Source: Methylocystaceae bacterium
GTDB lineage: Bacteria > Pseudomonadota > Alphaproteobacteria > Rhizobiales > Beijerinckiaceae
Length of the DNA: 34,242 bases
Assembly (NCBI GenBank): GCA_009773555.1
Contig: WSXZ01000025.1
Coordinates: forward strand, 1 to 34,242
Direction of reading: 5' to 3'
A program made the translations under genes and the position numbers. This document shows, in pieces, positions 6,085 to 26,059 of the stretch. The stretch's first letter is position 1, and every line of letters starts with the position of its first letter. The notes under the pieces were generated by a model, which was not told the DNA's origin, did no database searches, and worked only from the letters and a program-made list of their open reading frames with translations.

Positions 6085-8004
6085 ATGGACGCAAGCATCG
6101 AGGGTGACGGCGAGGTGACCGCCGTCGGCGACCAGGTTGCGGAAGCGCCGCGTCCGGCGGTCCCGGCGACCGCGCCAGCGCGCGACGCCGCCGCGGCGCG
6201 GGCCCGCCTGTGGCGGACGGTCTCCGTCCGTTTGGCGCGGGCGCAGCGCACGGTGCAGCGAACTGTCCAGTCGCATCTTTCGTCCTCGCTCACCCGCCGC
6301 ATCGTCGTTCTCAATCTTGGCGGGCTGGTCGCGCTGCTGGCTGGGTTCCTCTACCTCAACCAGTTTCGCGAAGGTCTGATCGACGCCCGCGTGCAAAGCC
6401 TGCAAACACAGGGCGAGATCATCGCCGCGGCGGTGGCGGCGTCAGCGACAGTCGACACCGACGCCATTTCCATTGATCCCGAGAAGCTGTTGAAGCTTGC
6501 GCCGGGAGAGAGCGCGAGCGACGCCGACGGCTCCCCGCTGGAGTTTTCGCTCAACCCCGAACGCGTCGGGCCGCTGCTGCGACGACTGGTGTCCCCGACC
6601 CGGCTGCGGGCGCGCATTTACGACCGCGACGGCTTTCTGCTGCTCGATTCGCGCTCCGTCTCCGGTCGTTCGAACATTCTGCGCTTCGAGCTGCCGCCCG
6701 CAAGCGGCCCGCCCACCACATTCGACGCATCGTCGTTCCTCGAACGGTCGCTGGAGTTTGTCCAGCGCCTGTCACATCGGCCGGAGCTGCCGCTTTACGA
6801 AGATATCGGCATGGGCAATGGCAAAGCCTATCCTGAGGTCGGCAGCGCGCTCGGCGGCCATATTCATTCGGTGGTGCGCGCCAACGCCAGGGGCGAAACC
6901 ATCATTTCCGTCGCCGTCCCGGTTCAGCGTTACCGGTCGGTGCGCGGGGCGCTGCTCCTCTCGACCATGGGCGGCGACATCGACGCCGTCATCGTCACGG
7001 AACGCTGGGGCATCATCCGCATCTTTCTGGTCTCGGCCGGCGTGATGCTGCTGATTTCGCTGTTCTTCACCAACACGATCACCGAACCGATGCGCCGCCT
7101 CGCCGAAGCGGCCGAGCGGGTGCGGCGCGGCGTCAAATCCCGCCAGGAGATCCCGGACTTCTCGGACCGGCCGGACGAGATCGGCCATCTTTCGGGCGCG
7201 CTGCGCGACATGACGAAGGCGCTCTACAACCGCATCGACGCGATCGAGCATTTCGCCGCGGATGTCGCGCATGAACTGAAGAATCCGTTGACGTCTCTGC
7301 GCAGCGCCGTCGAGACGCTGCCGATCGCCAAGACCGAGGAGTCGCGCGACAGGCTGCTCGCCGTCATCAAGCATGACGTCGGCAGGCTCGACCGTTTGAT
7401 CAGCGATATTTCCGACGCGTCTCGTCTCGACGCCGAACTCGCGCGCGCCGACATGGACGTCGTCGATCTCTCGGCGGCGCTGTCGACCGTCGTCGACTTG
7501 GCGCGCGCGGTGGAGCGCGGCGACGGCGTCACCATTCAGCTGACCGTGCGCTCCTCTCCCTACGACGCGACGCGCAGCCGCTGGCGCGTTCTCGGCAATG
7601 ACTCGCGCCTCGGTCAGGTGTTCAACAATCTGATCGACAACGGCCGGTCGTTTTCAAAGCCCGGCGGCGTCGTGCGGGTGCTGCTGTGGCCGGAGCGGGC
7701 GAAGGGGCCGGGAGGCCAGCAGGTCGAAGGCTTCGAGATCATCGTCGATGACGACGGCCCCGGCATTCCCGACGGCGCGTTCGAACGCATTTTCGAGCGT
7801 TTCTACACCGACCGGCCGGAACAGGGGTTTGGCCAAAACTCCGGGCTCGGGCTCTCGATCTCCCGCCAAATCATCGAGGCGCATGGCGGACGCGTCCGCG
7901 CCCTCAACCGCACCCGGGCGCATCCGCAGGGCACTGACGTGCCCCTGCCCGGCGACGCCGTGCTCGGCGCGCGCTTTGTCGTCTGGTTGCCTTCGGCGCG
8001 ATGA
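6085..8004 (+). CDS. chvG: ChvG/ExoS-type sensor histidine kinase
   Basis: A 639-residue inner-membrane kinase partner of ChvI. The Ala/Pro/Arg-rich cytoplasmic N-terminus precedes a first membrane helix at about residues 73-91. A periplasmic sensor domain of over 200 residues follows, then a second helix (FLVSAGVMLLISLFF), HAMP, a HisKA box with His396 in DVAHELKNPLTSL, and HATPase motifs FNNLIDNG, DDDGPGIPDG and GLGLSIS. The start at 6085 has a GGAGGGG site; an earlier ATG at 6031 lies inside chvI. The stop overlaps the start of hprK (ATGA), so the genes are translationally coupled. Confidence 0.92.
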   Translation: MDASIEGDGEVTAVGDQVAEAPRPAVPATAPARDAAAARARLWRTVSVRLARAQRTVQRTVQSHLSSSLTRRIVVLNLGGLVALLAGFLYLNQFREGLIDARVQSLQTQGEIIAAAVAASATVDTDAISIDPEKLLKLAPGESASDADGSPLEFSLNPERVGPLLRRLVSPTRLRARIYDRDGFLLLDSRSVSGRSNILRFELPPASGPPTTFDASSFLERSLEFVQRLSHRPELPLYEDIGMGNGKAYPEVGSALGGHIHSVVRANARGETIISVAVPVQRYRSVRGALLLSTMGGDIDAVIVTERWGIIRIFLVSAGVMLLISLFFTNTITEPMRRLAEAAERVRRGVKSRQEIPDFSDRPDEIGHLSGALRDMTKALYNRIDAIEHFAADVAHELKNPLTSLRSAVETLPIAKTEESRDRLLAVIKHDVGRLDRLISDISDASRLDAELARADMDVVDLSAALSTVVDLARAVERGDGVTIQLTVRSSPYDATRSRWRVLGNDSRLGQVFNNLIDNGRSFSKPGGVVRVLLWPERAKGPGGQQVEGFEIIVDDDGPGIPDGAFERIFERFYTDRPEQGFGQNSGLGLSISRQIIEAHGGRVRALNRTRAHPQGTDVPLPGDAVLGARFVVWLPSAR

Positions 8005-18480: not shown

Positions 18481-18506
18481 CAGGGATTCAGGCTGATCCA
18501 TGCGCT

Positions 18507-18631
18507 CGGACCCTGTCATTCCCGGCAGGCCGAAGGCCTGACCGGGAACCCAGAGCCGAGCCAACAATGTTGGTTTTACTCTGGACTCCCGATCGGGCGC
18601 GTTGCGCGCGTCGGGAATGACATCGGAGCCG
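18507..18631. repeat. Structured interspersed repeat, copy A
   Basis: This 125-bp element is similar to 25918-26043 over its whole length. An outer inverted repeat TGTCATTCCCG (18514-18524) / CGGGAATGACA (18612-18622) is perfect. Inside are three hairpins: CAGGCC-GAA-GGCCTG, a long arm based on CCCAGAG / CTCTGGA with CCAACA-A-TGTTGG at its tip, and GCGCG / CGCGC. It lies between the convergent ends of hemH and the YfhO-type gene. No open frame of interest is inside it. Confidence 0.9.
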
Positions 18632-18675
18632 TGCAAAGAGAAGCGCGTCACGCGCGAATTGCCGACATTCGCTCG

Positions 18676-20986: not shown

Positions 20987-21538
20987 TCAAAGCCGCGCTT
21001 CAGGCGACCGCCTGAGGCCGAAGCGCGCAGCGAGCGCGTCGATATCCACAGCCGCACGGCGCTTGTCATCCGACTCCAGCAGGAGGCGCAACCCCATGCC
21101 GCGCAGCATGTCAATAAAGGCGATGATATCAGGGTCGTCGGCCGTCCGGCCGAAGAGCGGCGCGAGCTGCTCGGCCACGCCTCGGGCGTGCGCGGCGAGC
21201 GTCGCCCGAATTTCCGATTGGTCGCTCGCCTGAGCCACGACGCTCAAGAAGAAGCGCATCCTATTGCGCTCGAACATGAGCGCGCGCACCGCTTCGACAG
21301 GATCGACGTCGCTTCCGATCGAACCGCGCTTGGGCTTATGCGCCTGCGCATGCGACGCTTCGAGCGTCGCGGCGAGCAAATCCGTCTTACGCGGAAAATA
21401 ATAGGTCAAATGCGACTGCCGCAGTCCGGCCGCAGCGGCGACGCGGGTTTGGGTCAGCGCAGAGACGCCTTCTTTCCTCAGGATTTTGAGCGCAGCGTCC
21501 AGAATGCGCTGACGCGCGCTTTTTTCCACCATCGCCAT
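20987..21538 (-). CDS. TetR-family transcriptional regulator
   Basis: A 183-residue regulator. The N-terminal helix-turn-helix spans about residues 8-55: RQRILDAALKILRKEGV, then TQTRVAAAAGLRQSHLTYYFPRKTDLL, the canonical TetR recognition-helix pattern with YYFPRK. The C-terminal ligand domain is short and not assignable to a ligand. Start could be the ATG at 21538 or the one two codons later. It is divergent from the gene at 21672. The 133-bp gap contains the palindrome TTGGTA-N3-TACCAA, recurring at 22201, which I take to be its operator. Typical TetR behaviour would be repression of itself and the plus-strand genes. Confidence 0.9.
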   Translation of the reverse strand: MAMVEKSARQRILDAALKILRKEGVSALTQTRVAAAAGLRQSHLTYYFPRKTDLLAATLEASHAQAHKPKRGSIGSDVDPVEAVRALMFERNRMRFFLSVVAQASDQSEIRATLAAHARGVAEQLAPLFGRTADDPDIIAFIDMLRGMGLRLLLESDDKRRAAVDIDALAARFGLRRSPEARL

Positions 21539-21623
21539 TCGCGTTCATTCAACCTTCGCCGCCCAGCGTCGTATCAAAAAAAACGCGCCGCGGAAACGCC
21601 TCTGACGCTTGCGTCACATTTGA

Positions 21624-21638
21624 TTGGTAATATACCAA
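21624..21638. promoter_or_regulatory. Candidate TetR operator, copy 1
   Basis: A perfect inverted repeat TTGGTA-ATA-TACCAA lies in the divergent gap between the TetR gene and the periplasmic protein gene, 34 bp upstream of the latter's ATG. The AT-rich core would overlap a -10 region in either direction. The same half-sites recur at 22201-22215. I assign it to the adjacent TetR regulator from position and symmetry. Confidence 0.75.
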
Positions 21639-21671
21639 CCTAGCGCGCCACGCTAACGTTGGAGAGGATCG

Positions 21672-22121
21672 ATGAGATTATTTCTTATTGGGATGATCAG
21701 TGCAGCGGCGTGCCTGAGCGCGCGGGCCGACGAAGGATCCGAGGCGGCGCGCCGCCTGCTGTTCGAAACGTTCGACAAGCCCGAAACGCGCCTGTTTGTC
21801 GACGCAATCGTCGTCGAAGGCGACGTCGCCATCGCCGACTGGCGCCAGGGCGAACTCGGCGGCCGGGCGTTTCTTACGCGTAAGGGCGATGCGTGGAGCA
21901 TCTCGCTTTGCGCCGGCGACGCCTTGAAAGACAGCGCCACGCTGGAAAAGCTCGGCGTTTCCAAAGCAAATGCGGAAGCGCTTTCAAAACGGCTGGCGGC
22001 CGAAGAGACGCGGCTCTCGCCCGACGTGGTTGAACGATTCTCCCGATTTGACGGCATGGCCGCCGTCGAGGCGGATGGGAGCCATTCGCCGCTCGATCCC
22101 CATCACAAGCCCATTCCCTGA
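21672..22121 (+). CDS. Small periplasmic protein, possibly copper-uptake associated
   Basis: A 149-residue exported protein with a cleavable signal peptide (MRLFLIGMISAAACLSARA, cleavage before DEG). The mature part carries IADWRQGELGGRAFL and WSISLCAGDALKD, then a helical C-terminus and a His-rich tail (DPHHKP). From memory, this WxQG-GGR-LC pattern matches small proteins annotated as associated with copper uptake next to copper TonB receptors; I could not verify that. GGAGAGG precedes the ATG. The candidate TetR operator lies just upstream. The gene is followed by a 169-bp gap holding a hairpin and the second operator. Confidence 0.75.
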   Translation: MRLFLIGMISAAACLSARADEGSEAARRLLFETFDKPETRLFVDAIVVEGDVAIADWRQGELGGRAFLTRKGDAWSISLCAGDALKDSATLEKLGVSKANAEALSKRLAAEETRLSPDVVERFSRFDGMAAVEADGSHSPLDPHHKPIP

Positions 22122-22131
22122 CTGTCGCTCA

Positions 22132-22151
22132 CTGTTGCGCCGGAGCAACAG
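22132..22151 (+). terminator. Small hairpin after the periplasmic protein gene
   Basis: CTGTTGC (22132-22138) and GCAACAG (22145-22151) form a perfect 7-bp stem with a 6-nt loop, 10 bp after the stop codon at 22121. No T run follows, so it is a weak terminator or a processing structure at best. It separates the first gene from the second candidate operator. Confidence 0.35.
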
Positions 22152-22200
22152 CAACCGAAAATGCGCCCGTCAGGCCCGCCGAAGCGTTGCCCCACGTAAT

Positions 22201-22215
22201 TTGGTATATTACCAA
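22201..22215. promoter_or_regulatory. Candidate TetR operator, copy 2
   Basis: TTGGTA-TAT-TACCAA has the same half-sites and the same 3-bp spacer length as the palindrome at 21624-21638; the spacer is the reverse complement of the first. It lies 75 bp upstream of the Cys/His-rich gene that precedes the TonB-dependent receptor. This suggests a second promoter under the same regulator. Confidence 0.75.
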
Positions 22216-22290
22216 CATTCAGGTTCGGCGCTCTGAACGCCCCTCCTTTCGCGCCTTCGGCGAGACGCAGCCACGAGGATCCGAGACAAG

Positions 22291-22671
22291 ATGACGGCCC
22301 TTGCGAGAATGCCTCGCTCGATGATTTTGCGGCGCATCGGGGCCCTTTGCATCGCGCTGCTTGTCGCGCTCGCGGCGGTTTCTTCCTCCGCGCCGGCGCA
22401 TGCCGCGCGTCCCGGGACGACCGTGCACTGTCCGGACACTTCCCAACCTGCGCCGACGAACCATCCGTGTGGCGGCGAGCAATGCTGCTCGCTCTGCGGT
22501 CACAGCCAAAAAGAGCTGGTTTTTCCCTTTTTCGCGTCCGTATCTGGCGCCATCGCCTATGCGCCTCCGCGCGCCGCAAGCCGCGCATTCTGCGCCATTC
22601 AGGCGCCGGCCAGAAAAACCGTCCGCGCACATTCGCGCGCCGCCCCGCGCGCGCCGCCCCGCTTCTCCTGA
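22291..22671 (+). CDS. Cys/His-rich exported or membrane-anchored protein, 126 aa
   Basis: After a basic start there is a strong hydrophobic segment (LRRIGALCIALLVALAAV, roughly residues 13-30) ending in APAHA, a likely signal peptide. The mature part is dominated by HCPD, then HPCGGEQCCSLCGHSQKE, a dense set of cysteines and histidines suited to binding a soft metal. A second hydrophobic patch (LVFPFFASVSGAIAY) and a basic tail follow. It recalls the DUF2946-type small proteins that occur near copper genes, but I do not assign the family. Start among three nearby ATGs is uncertain. It lies 56 bp before the receptor gene. Confidence 0.65.
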   Translation: MTALARMPRSMILRRIGALCIALLVALAAVSSSAPAHAARPGTTVHCPDTSQPAPTNHPCGGEQCCSLCGHSQKELVFPFFASVSGAIAYAPPRAASRAFCAIQAPARKTVRAHSRAAPRAPPRFS

Positions 22672-22727: not shown

Positions 22728-25088
22728 ATGTTCCGGACCGGCTTGCTGCGCGGCGCGTCCGCCGTCGCCCTCATTCTTTCGCTCGCGGATTCGAGCGCCT
22801 TTGCGCAACAGAGTCTGCCGACCATCGACATTGGCGGCGCCAAGCCGCGCGTCGTCGGACGCGGCGGCGGTCGCGCGCCGTCTACGGCGACAGCGCCAGC
22901 CGTCCCCGCCACATGGACGCAAACCGGCGGAGGCGGCGGGTCGTTGACCGTGCCGTCAGTCGCCCAGCAGCGCCGCGAACTCGAGCGCAGCGTCGGCTCG
23001 GTCGCCTTCGTCGACGCCAATACGCCCGAGATTCAAACCCGCTACGTTCACGACCTGCGCGACGCGCTCAAGGACGTCCCTGGCGTCTATGCCGAAAGCC
23101 GCTACGGACAGGAACTGCGTCTTTCGATCCGCGGCTCGAATCTGACGCGCGACTTCCATCTGCGCGGACTGGAGCTGCTGCAGGACGGCATTCCGATGAA
23201 CTACGCCGACGGCGGCGGCGATATGTATCAGATCGATCCCAAATATTTTCGCGCGATCGAAGTTATGAAAGGCGGCAACGCCCTCGCCTATGGCTCCTCG
23301 ACGCTCGGCGGCGCCATTAATTTCATCTCGCCCACCGCCTATACGGCGCTCGCGCCGAACATGGCGTCGCTCGAGGGCGGCAGTTACGGGACCGTGCGCG
23401 GGCAAGCGCAGATGTCGCGCATCATCGGCAATTTCGATTTTCTCATCAACGGCACGTTCACCCATGCCGACAATTACAGAAAACATTCGACGACGGACTA
23501 CACGCAGCTCAACGGCAATCTCGGCTATCGCTTCTCCAACGATCTCGAAACGCGGTTCTATTTCGGCGTCTATGACACGTGGCAATTGCTGCCGGGACAA
23601 CTCAACGAATTCGATGCGCGCAACAATCCGCGACTGTCGCTGCCGCCGTATCCGCCGGGTGTCGGGCCGGACGGCTTTGGCGCCAATCAGGCGCGAAACG
23701 TCAAGAACTGGCGCATTTCGAACAAGACCACGATCCTGAGCGAGTTCGGCCGCATCGACCTCAACAGCTGGTACACGCACAATTATCTCTATCATCCGAT
23801 TTTCGTGGTCATCGAACAGGAAGGCGGGACCTGGGGATTCACGCCGCGCCTCACCTCGAATTTCCTTGTCGACGGCCACCCCAACGAGCTCATCCTCGGC
23901 GGCCGCGCCTGGGGCGGATCGTCGAGCGATAATTGGTCCGACAATTACAATGGCATGCGGCTCAACCCCTATGGCGGGATCCCCGCCAATTTCGGCAACG
24001 CGCAGTTCTCCTTTCCACCCTATTCGTTCAACGGACTCGCGCAATTTGGCGCGGCGAATTCGTGCTTTGGCTTCTGCGGCCTGTTCATCAATCCCGGATT
24101 GGATCCGCGTCTGCGCAACAATCGCGCGACGGCGCTCAATCTCGAAGCCTATTTCGAGGATCGCCTGCATATCGCGCCGCAGCTCATCTTCATGTTCGGC
24201 GCCAAGCTTTTCGCCGATACGCGTCGCTATGCGGTTCTCGGCGGCATTCCCTTCGAGCCTGTTCCCGGCGTATCGGACCAAGTCTACCGCGGCATCGTGC
24301 CCAAGGTCGGTCTGATGTACGAACCGACGCCGGACATTCAGTTCTTCGCCGACATGACCGGAAGCCGCGACGTGCCGGACTTCATCGACCTGACGCAAGG
24401 CGTGTTTCCGCCGCCGCGCGACGGCACCAAATTCACGCCGCTCGCGGCGCAGAAAGCCTGGACCGGGGAGCTCGGCGCGCGCGGCAGATGGGACCGCTAC
24501 ACCTGGGACGTGACCTTCTACCATTCGGAACTGCAGGACGAACTCTTGAAATTCACCACCAATCCCGGCCTCGGCATTCCGGCGACGACCTTCAATGCGA
24601 AACGCACCATGCACCAGGGCGTCGAATTCGCGGCGAGCGCCGAACTCCTGCGCGATATTTTCGCGCCGGATGCAGGCGACGCGCTAAAGCTGTCGCAGGT
24701 TTGGACCTGGAACGATTTCCGCTTCGTCGGCGATCGCGACTTCGGCGACAATACGCTGGCCGGCATTCCGCGCCACGTCTTGCGCACCACGCTGTCCTAT
24801 TGGCGGCCCGACGGCCTCTACCTCGCGCCGCAGATGGATTGGGTTCCGGGAGGCGCTTACGTCGACTACGCCAATACGCTGCAGGCGCCGGGCTATGTCT
24901 TGCTGGGCGTCCAGGCGGGCATGAAGCTGCCCTACGGTCTCTCGTTCTTTGTCGAGGCGCGCAATCTGACCAATCGCCACTACATCAGCGACGTGACCAC
25001 GATCGTCGACGCCCGCGGTCTCGATCCGAGGGTCTTCTATCCGGGCACGGGACGGGTGATCTACGGAGGCTTGCGCCTCGCGTTCTAG
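22728..25088 (+). CDS. TonB-dependent outer-membrane receptor
   Basis: A 786-residue receptor. The signal peptide (MFRTGLLRGASAVALILSLA, cleaved after AFA) is preceded by an AGGAG site. The plug domain includes LRDALKDVPGVYAESRYGQE, LSIRGSNLTRDFHLRGLELL and IEVMKGGNALAYGSSTLGGA, followed by a 22-strand-type barrel. The end RNLTNRHYISDV and a terminal Phe (GGLRLAF) are typical of TonB-dependent receptors of the FecA-like group. Substrate cannot be read from the sequence. There is no N-terminal signalling domain, so no sigma/anti-sigma control is expected. It lies between the Cys/His-rich gene and an ABC system. Confidence 0.93.
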   Translation: MFRTGLLRGASAVALILSLADSSAFAQQSLPTIDIGGAKPRVVGRGGGRAPSTATAPAVPATWTQTGGGGGSLTVPSVAQQRRELERSVGSVAFVDANTPEIQTRYVHDLRDALKDVPGVYAESRYGQELRLSIRGSNLTRDFHLRGLELLQDGIPMNYADGGGDMYQIDPKYFRAIEVMKGGNALAYGSSTLGGAINFISPTAYTALAPNMASLEGGSYGTVRGQAQMSRIIGNFDFLINGTFTHADNYRKHSTTDYTQLNGNLGYRFSNDLETRFYFGVYDTWQLLPGQLNEFDARNNPRLSLPPYPPGVGPDGFGANQARNVKNWRISNKTTILSEFGRIDLNSWYTHNYLYHPIFVVIEQEGGTWGFTPRLTSNFLVDGHPNELILGGRAWGGSSSDNWSDNYNGMRLNPYGGIPANFGNAQFSFPPYSFNGLAQFGAANSCFGFCGLFINPGLDPRLRNNRATALNLEAYFEDRLHIAPQLIFMFGAKLFADTRRYAVLGGIPFEPVPGVSDQVYRGIVPKVGLMYEPTPDIQFFADMTGSRDVPDFIDLTQGVFPPPRDGTKFTPLAAQKAWTGELGARGRWDRYTWDVTFYHSELQDELLKFTTNPGLGIPATTFNAKRTMHQGVEFAASAELLRDIFAPDAGDALKLSQVWTWNDFRFVGDRDFGDNTLAGIPRHVLRTTLSYWRPDGLYLAPQMDWVPGGAYVDYANTLQAPGYVLLGVQAGMKLPYGLSFFVEARNLTNRHYISDVTTIVDARGLDPRVFYPGTGRVIYGGLRLAF

Positions 25089-25890: not shown

Positions 25891-25917
25891 AACGAATTCC
25901 GACCGATCCGTTCGCTT

Positions 25918-26043
25918 GGACCGTGTCATTCCCGGCAGGCCGAAGGCCTGACCGGGAATCCAGAGCCAATCCAAGAACGCTGGTCTTGCTCTGGATTCCC
26001 GATCGCGCGCTTTGCGCGCGGGTCGGGAATGACATCCGAGCCG
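25918..26043. repeat. Structured interspersed repeat, copy B
   Basis: A 126-bp element, clearly similar to 18507-18631. The outer inverted repeat TGTCATTCCCG / CGGGAATGACA encloses CAGGCC-GAA-GGCCTG (25936-25950), a perfect 13-bp stem GGGAATCCAGAGC (25954-25966) / GCTCTGGATTCCC (25988-26000), and GCGCGC-TTT-GCGCGC. It sits between the ABC ATPase and permease genes, and its right end is only 16 bp before the permease start codon. Confidence 0.9.
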
Positions 26044-26059
26044 TTCGAACGGATGTCGT

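Follow-up and report, generated by a model that had tools for sequence, protein, structure and literature searches.

Methane oxidation is largely dependent on copper, and in the methanobactin (mbn) system of methanotrophs the metal is acquired through TonB receptors. To our knowledge, the control of copper uptake in these bacteria has been little studied beyond that system. In Bordetella, the leader peptide CruR senses copper through a CXXC motif and stalls at a RAPP motif, and five residues added between the two motifs strongly weakened the copper effect (PMC9426467; this and the other PMC-numbered sources are cited for parts of their text). The arrest-prone motifs RAPP and RGPP are over-represented ahead of TonB and copper genes (PMC12992588). 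Main-text passages on the copper transcriptome of Methylosinus trichosporium OB3b mention TonB once, in a siderophore cluster, and do not mention DUF2946 (PMC12811070). Here we describe a locus in a stretch of 34,242 nucleotides from a Methylocystaceae bacterium (contig WSXZ01000025.1; the whole stretch is referred to hereafter as the window), in which a tetR gene adjoins a gene for a copper uptake system-associated protein (the copper-associated gene), a small leader open reading frame (ORF) and a TonB receptor gene. The palindrome TTGGTA-N3-TACCAA is present twice. We consider it likely that the two copies are operators from which the TetR protein would repress both the copper-associated gene and the leader and receptor genes, with a second, copper-sensing layer of control in the leader.

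Both copies are exact (Table 1), as an earlier note on this DNA had claimed when it described two perfect and equally spaced palindromes, and 100 shuffles of the window gave no copy. They are reverse complements of each other, a relation that the note did not mention. The genome itself (Methylocystis-like, 3,999,444 bases in 144 contigs) holds two exact palindromes, both at this locus. With up to two mismatches allowed there were 20 places, namely the two exact copies and 18 with two mismatches, as compared with 46 for a backwards-sequence control. The many unrelated matches across the genome that the note had feared were not seen, since beyond this pair there was neither an exact nor a one-mismatch copy.

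The palindrome follows tetR across the family, as the note had proposed to check. Among 248 family genomes, relatives of tetR (counted at E ≤ 1e-15) were found in 15 and the exact palindrome in 17; it occurred in 13 of the 15 genomes with a tetR match as compared with 4/233 without one (Fisher p 1.5e-16, uncorrected for relatedness). Two genomes have tetR but no exact palindrome; in one of them, G114, a copy with one mismatch lies next to the gene. The regions around the four stray palindromes (10.5-13 kb each) contained none of the ten window proteins searched for. Conversely, in four family genomes where copper-associated genes occur without this tetR, the palindrome was not found in the 10-15 kb fetched. 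At genus level (39 genomes), the receptor was present in 19 and the looser pattern TTGGTN4TACCAA in 22, that is, in 19/19 receptor-bearing genomes and 3/20 others (G151, G177, G164). An order-wide search gave a TetR match in 6/397 genomes, this one and five others (loci L136-L140); the N3 site in L136 has one mismatch, and L137 carries an exact site with an N4 spacer.

The association is not without exceptions. In G638 and G642 the match to the looser pattern lies away from the receptor locus, where the site has one mismatch to the strict pattern, and the locus-bearing genomes G628 and G642 carry one and two extra exact copies, respectively, with no searched protein near. TetR matches lack such a site in G158, the other tetR-only genome (30-32% identity), in L078 (38%) and in L138-L140 (38-39%), the last three having no exact or one-mismatch N3 site and no exact site at any spacer from 0 to 9; L078 and L138 at least retain a TonB-MFS-methyltransferase run of genes, though without the operator. 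On contig C92 of G642, which has none of the searched proteins, two exact N3 palindromes start 18 bp apart (L204:6500-6800).

The position of the operators is conserved as well. Among named genomes, the closest are those of Methylocystis, namely M. rosea SV97, strains L43 and H62, and a metagenome-assembled genome; their TetR is 98% identical. When the gaps are aligned across Methylocystis (15 and 13 rows), the operators stand out as islands of identity within drifting flanks. Five Methylosinus loci (L041, L042, L044, L045, L048; TetR 53-55% identical) have copies with 0-2 mismatches at both places, one in the gap that separates tetR from the copper-associated gene and the other 5' of the leader ORF; a further locus, L047, is cut by a contig end. 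In L043, which has a different gene order, a one-mismatch copy precedes a hydrolase gene and an exact copy precedes the copper-associated gene. Leader ORF, receptor and operator 2 are jointly missing from L056 and L057, which keep tetR, operator 1, the copper-associated gene and the ABC genes; L056 retains a receptor remnant (a 110-aa match, 36%), and both assemblies carry a second tetR-leader-receptor locus (L061, L063). Loss of the palindromes from relatives that keep tetR and the receptor, the other outcome that the note held would tell against operators, was not seen among the relatives inspected, in which copies with 0-2 mismatches are kept.

These data bear on whether the palindromes are a product of chance or members of a repeat family. 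The single copies in 4/233 family genomes without a tetR match and the extra copies in G628 and G642 are what such an origin would predict, but the absence of copies from the shuffles, the two copies in the genome, the tracking of tetR, the kept positions, the islands of identity and the prevalence of the TTGGTA hexamer among relatives (see below) make it scarcely credible, and it was rejected on the shuffle null, the backwards control and the association with tetR.

The regulator is predicted to consist of an N-terminal helix-turn-helix and an all-helical ligand domain of the TetR fold, as expected of the TetR family. Its product matched PF00440 (TetR_N) at 37.2 bits against a cut-off of 24 (E 2.6e-9), and a structure model of medium confidence (pLDDT 74.9, pTM 0.65) found TetR-family structures as its best Foldseek matches in the PDB (first match E 3.4e-5, TM 0.62). 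Comparative evidence argues strongly that such a protein would bind a palindromic operator near its own gene. A scan of genome contigs with ten TetR sequences yielded 154 relatives, and the 80 best were taken forward. They were selected by the peptide patterns QSHLTYYF and LTQ[PT]R[VI]A[KA]A, so the constancy of the recognition helix among them is built in; the operator played no part in the selection. In the first 30 (L050-L079) an exact N3 palindrome lies within 5 kb upstream of tetR in 23/30 and a one-mismatch copy in six more, L078 having neither, and TTGGTA is the commonest palindromic hexamer (23 loci, with seven for the runner-up). The other 50 (L080-L129) include 33 in which an exact TTGGTA-N4-TACCAA lies no more than 300 nt upstream of tetR. 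The two groups did not overlap in their exact sites: an exact N3 site was found within 5 kb in 0/50 of the latter and an exact N4 site there in 0/30 of the former, and 17/50 have neither.

On a tree of the TetR sequences, the 29 N3 rows, of which six have a one-mismatch site, and the 33 N4 rows are parted by a single branch, so that the spacer changes once as compared with 20.6 times in shuffles. This branch is moderately supported (81/92; 80% of bootstrap trees) in a tree with many long end branches, 18 unlabelled rows and the site-less L078 inside the N3 side. The distant relatives share with the window the half-site and the motif QSHLTYYF; they differ in a spacer one base longer and, mostly, in T50-R51 instead of R50-K51, the three residues after YYF being PRK in 25/30 of the first group and PTR in 40/50 of the second. 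The half-site is a property of a wider TetR branch rather than private to this locus, the spacer being N3 in the window's clade and N4 in most of the rest. A constant half-site with two spacers in one branch offers a clean case for studying how a dimer adjusts to operator spacing. Genes were listed for ten N4 loci, and Pfam was run on seven proteins of four of them. In L085, L087 and L110, tetR is followed by a HlyD-type gene. An ABC ATPase gene comes next in L085 and L087, with an ABC-2 permease gene as well in L087, and in L121 an ABC-2 permease lies ~4 kb further on. The N4 spacer is not confined to exporter operons, because in L137 (position 4169) an exact N4 site stands 5' of a TonB-MFS-methyltransferase run.

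How the regulator would act is suggested by the sequence beside the operators. In a comparison of 39 operator sites, hand-picked from 22 loci and the window and many of them closely related, a TTGC box resembling a -35 element and reading towards the cargo gene starts upstream of the operator in 33 (at -14 in 26 and at -15 in seven), while TTGC occurs four times on the other side, at scattered places. The TetR protein is likely to be a promoter-occluding repressor because the operator sits just behind the -35-like box of the cargo promoter. A consensus scan gave no sigma-70 promoter at either operator, which weakens this reading, and with promoter elements that are predicted only, the regulator could instead be an activator, or the palindromes could be bound by a different regulator. 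We regard this as improbable: the operator begins 10-11 nt after the box in those 33 sites, so that a dimer bound there would lie over the promoter, the palindrome follows tetR, and other members of the TetR branch have the same half-site beside their own genes. Just past the stop codon of the copper-associated gene lies a perfect hairpin, largely conserved in Methylocystis and equalled in 8/200 shuffles, which may separate the two transcription units.

The ORF between operator 2 and the receptor gene had been read in the earlier note as a Cys/His-rich protein. By analogy with described leaders, it is probably a regulatory arrest-peptide leader of the CruR/CutF kind and not a working metal-binding part, as judged from its CXXC and RAPP motifs, its relatives and a DUF2946 match in one of them. 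It contains CXXC as CSLC, ends in RAPPRFS and, like CruR leaders, precedes a TonB receptor gene in the window and in relatives. ORFs with CXXC and a C-terminal RAPPxFS were found 5' of the receptor in Methylocystis loci L036-L040, L186-L191, L050-L055, L058, L059, L075, L077 and L206, which are the inspected loci of the window's receptor clade and derive partly from the same genomes, and likewise in Methylosinus L041, L042, L044, L045 and L048. These motifs are kept in relatives while the rest of the ORF drifts. The DUF2946 model scored 31.1 bits in the L048 counterpart, above the cut-off of 23.7, and less in L046 (19.4), L041 (17) and L040 (8.4). RAPPxFS is not in every Methylocystis locus, as leaders of a second receptor clade (L046, L183-L185) have CXXC and end in SATSPPR. 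A transposase-like ORF, recognized by eye, separates leader and receptor genes in L183 (7935-9497).

Several features fit the leader assignment poorly. The window ORF has neither a DUF2946 match nor any significant Pfam match, and the L183-L185 ORFs have no DUF2946 match at E 0.01. The spacing between CXXC and RAPP is 50 (48 in L041, L042 and L048) as compared with 45 in CruR, and the leader-receptor gap is 56 nt as compared with 162 in the CruR system (PMC9426467). Exact CXXC is absent from L182, which ends in RSPPANA, and from L043, which ends in RGPPSVF. A CutF-like RNA stem-loop before the receptor was also considered and rejected (fold z -1.23, 22/200 shuffles equally good). The direction of the leader's copper response we infer from its cargo.

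For that cargo, copper is the likely substrate because the protein encoded after operator 1 belongs to NF033672 (124.9 bits, cut-off 50). The earlier note had called it a periplasmic protein; its place in the regulated locus stands, and its identity can now be given more precisely. In three of four loci where NF033672 members occur without this tetR, they lie beside CopC-CopD, DUF1775-PCuAC or PepSY_TM, and in the fourth beside TonB receptors. The evidence from the receptor is less favourable. Its nearest solved relatives are YncD/PqqU, mainly over residues 79-302, the OprC-type copper receptor model TIGR01778 scored 19 bits as compared with a cut-off of 472.45, and no model assigns it to copper. 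Nor was a copper gene seen in the TonB-MFS-methyltransferase operons that the operator heads in farther TetR relatives. In most of these relatives (L064-L067, L069-L074, L076, L079; hosts in Rhizobiaceae, Hyphomicrobium, Xanthobacter, Reyranella, Devosia, Nitratireductor and Burkholderia paludis) the palindrome, with 0-1 mismatch, stands at the head of a run that ends with tetR and combines, in varying sets, genes for a TonB receptor, an MFS protein, a methyltransferase and/or a saccharopine-dehydrogenase-like protein (for example L067:3840-8501). The locus might take up a siderophore, a PQQ-like cofactor or another chelate under an operator-binding TetR, the copper label deriving from family names and the leader motif. 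The operons of the farther relatives fit this, as do the receptor's best scores, which came from TonB-siderophore and PqqU models and stayed below every cut-off (PqqU, NF041535: 111.3 bits, far under 1200). We think a non-copper substrate rather unlikely, though it is the most serious of the alternatives: NF033672 is above its cut-off, three of the four other NF033672 loci have copper-related neighbours, and the leader bears the CXXC and RAPP marks of copper leaders. In L065 of Burkholderia paludis (6565-7962) a copper-associated domain is fused to an alpha/beta hydrolase, whereas L043 has a similar hydrolase as a gene apart, preceded by an operator-like site that belongs to it.

The genes after the receptor encode an ABC ATPase, an FtsX/MacB-type permease and a CrtC-type lipocalin protein (Pfam). 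The note had tentatively included the ABC genes in the regulon, but their distribution speaks otherwise: the permease is in 38/39 genus genomes as compared with 19/39 for the receptor, and ABC, FtsX and lipocalin matches were absent from the fetched Methylosinus loci. They were rejected as part of the regulon core, although read-through from the receptor gene is possible. What is left of the proposed regulated unit is tetR with operators at the copper-associated gene and at leader and receptor; the small regulon has two operators beside tetR and an uptake receptor, and its extent is two places in one locus. A palindromic repeat of ~130 bp lies twice in the window (18505-18640 and 25912-26050; 117/134 ungapped columns alike), the second copy between the ATPase and FtsX genes. 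It may be a small mobile repeat, because the two genes abut in L036 and L187 and are separated by ~170 nt in L186 and L191.

The TetR protein itself contains no cysteine. Among 18 TetR rows, chosen by us from the first 30 relatives, the clade-typical residues are H63 (16/18), F96, H117, R131, D135 and R146 (18/18 each) and D143 (15/18); they are mostly different in the other 50 relatives and are also kept in rows from loci without a copper gene seen. The lack of cysteine together with the conserved H63, H117, R131, D135, D143 and R146 favours a polar small molecule, maybe a metal chelate, over bare Cu(I) as the ligand. The conserved histidines, and the copper-responsive TetR-like ComR as a precedent (PMC7558416), could be taken to mean that the TetR protein binds copper ions as the sensor and that the leader ORF has no regulatory role. 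This is doubtful, considering the absence of cysteine, the retention of H63/H117-type residues in relatives without copper genes seen, and leader motifs that persist while the rest of that ORF drifts. Moreover, BLASTP gave no similarity between the locus TetR and E. coli ComR (E 92), and kinship with ComR was rejected. In the tetR leader, a short hairpin followed by T8 lies in a stretch that is well conserved in Methylocystis (15-row gap alignment); its fold is no better than that of shuffles, so it is only a lead.

The palindromes, their conservation and their co-inheritance with tetR are observed; binding, promoters and repression are inferred. In the mechanism we favour, a TetR dimer would bind TTGGTA-N3-TACCAA just downstream of the -35-like TTGC box and block two promoters, that of the copper-associated periplasmic gene and that of the leader ORF and receptor, and its ligand would release it from the operators. 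Transcripts from the second promoter would then meet a second gate, the leader with its CXXC and arrest-type RAPPRFS, which by analogy with Bordetella CruR could couple receptor expression to copper. The locus would be a small copper-acquisition unit under transcriptional control by TetR and co-translational control by an arrest peptide. An extension of this scheme, which we offer as speculation that is unlikely to hold as a whole, is that the ligand of TetR is a polar organic carrier of copper, a chalkophore made by the cell itself or taken from others and imported by the receptor, and that the leader senses copper itself; TetR relatives would govern TonB-MFS-methyltransferase operons for related chelates, the spacer having switched perhaps once, from N4 to N3 or the reverse, together with residues 50-51. 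If so, receptor synthesis would require both the presence of the carrier and a shortage of copper, and methanotrophs would have a two-input gate for chelate-borne copper.

Table 1. Features of the locus, with positions in the window.
Feature	Position	Strand	Remarks
tetR, TetR_N-family regulator, 183 aa, no cysteine	20987..21538	-	PF00440; recognition-helix region RQSHLTYYFPRK
Short hairpin then T8 in tetR leader	21585..21599	-	terminator-like scan; 15-row gap alignment
CTTGCGT, -35-like TTGC starting 15 nt upstream of operator 1, towards copper-associated gene	21608..21614	+	39-site comparison
Operator 1	21624..21638		TTGGTAATATACCAA; in gap between tetR start (21538, minus) and copper-associated gene start (21672, plus); exact match, uniqueness, family tracking, conservation in relatives
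NF033672 copper uptake system-associated protein, 149 aa, probably exported	21672..22121	+	hydrophobic N-terminus (by eye)
Perfect 7-bp hairpin just past stop codon of copper-associated gene	22132..22151	+	-10.8 kcal/mol
TTGCCC starting 14 nt upstream of operator 2	22187..22192	+	GTTGC invariant in 13 Methylocystis rows
Operator 2	22201..22215		TTGGTATATTACCAA; reverse complement of operator 1 and vice versa; 75 nt 5' of ATG at 22291; exact match, uniqueness, conservation
CruR/CutF-like leader ORF, 126 aa	22291..22671	+	hydrophobic N-terminus (by eye), CSLC, RAPP + three residues to stop
TonB-dependent outer-membrane receptor, 786 aa, putative copper (complex) receptor	22728..25088	+	PF00593, PF07715

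Taken together, the data describe a probable copper-uptake locus with two conserved operators of a TetR regulator, which most likely acts as a repressor, and with a leader that resembles an arrest peptide. The parts of the locus are of known kinds. In a literature search of partial coverage, no description was found of a TetR operator pair combined with an arrest-peptide leader, the titles and abstract beginnings among the papers listed made no mention of the TTGGTA palindrome with TetR, and the term 'copper uptake system-associated' returned nothing. Because one promoter brings together a defined operator, its regulator and a leader peptide, experiments could tell transcriptional metal control apart from the co-translational kind.

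Among known systems, methanobactin uptake resembles the proposed role of the locus in that copper is acquired through TonB receptors. The genome probably carries methanobactin genes too, because an mbnC match exceeds the cut-off (G000 C11:52013-52558); this match lies on another contig than the locus, and no mbn genes were identified among the locus proteins scanned. Across the genus, mbnC matches occur in 22/39 genomes, 21 of them over the cut-off. ComR-ComC of E. coli likewise ties a TetR-like regulator to outer-membrane copper passage (PMC7558416), with a regulator that shows no BLASTP similarity to the locus TetR and with other target genes. CutF of the cutFOG operon of Rhodobacter capsulatus is, like the window ORF, an exported leader with a Cys motif and a proline-rich C-terminal stall motif, and CutF-like genes mostly have gaps below 100 nt, so that the window's leader-receptor gap is closer to CutF than to CruR; in contrast, CutF raises the output of a multicopper oxidase with copper, whereas the gene downstream in the window is a receptor (PMC9973294). 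A close parallel is CruR-BfrG(CrtA) of Bordetella pertussis, where a TonB receptor gene is preceded by a small leader that contains CXXC and, as in the window, a C-terminal RAPP with three more residues after it (PMC9426467). The locus differs from that system in its motif spacing and gap, as given above, and in having no following PepSY_TM gene. It also adds tetR and two operators, suggesting a layer of transcriptional control in a type of system for which the main-text portions of PMC12914433 make no mention of TetR.

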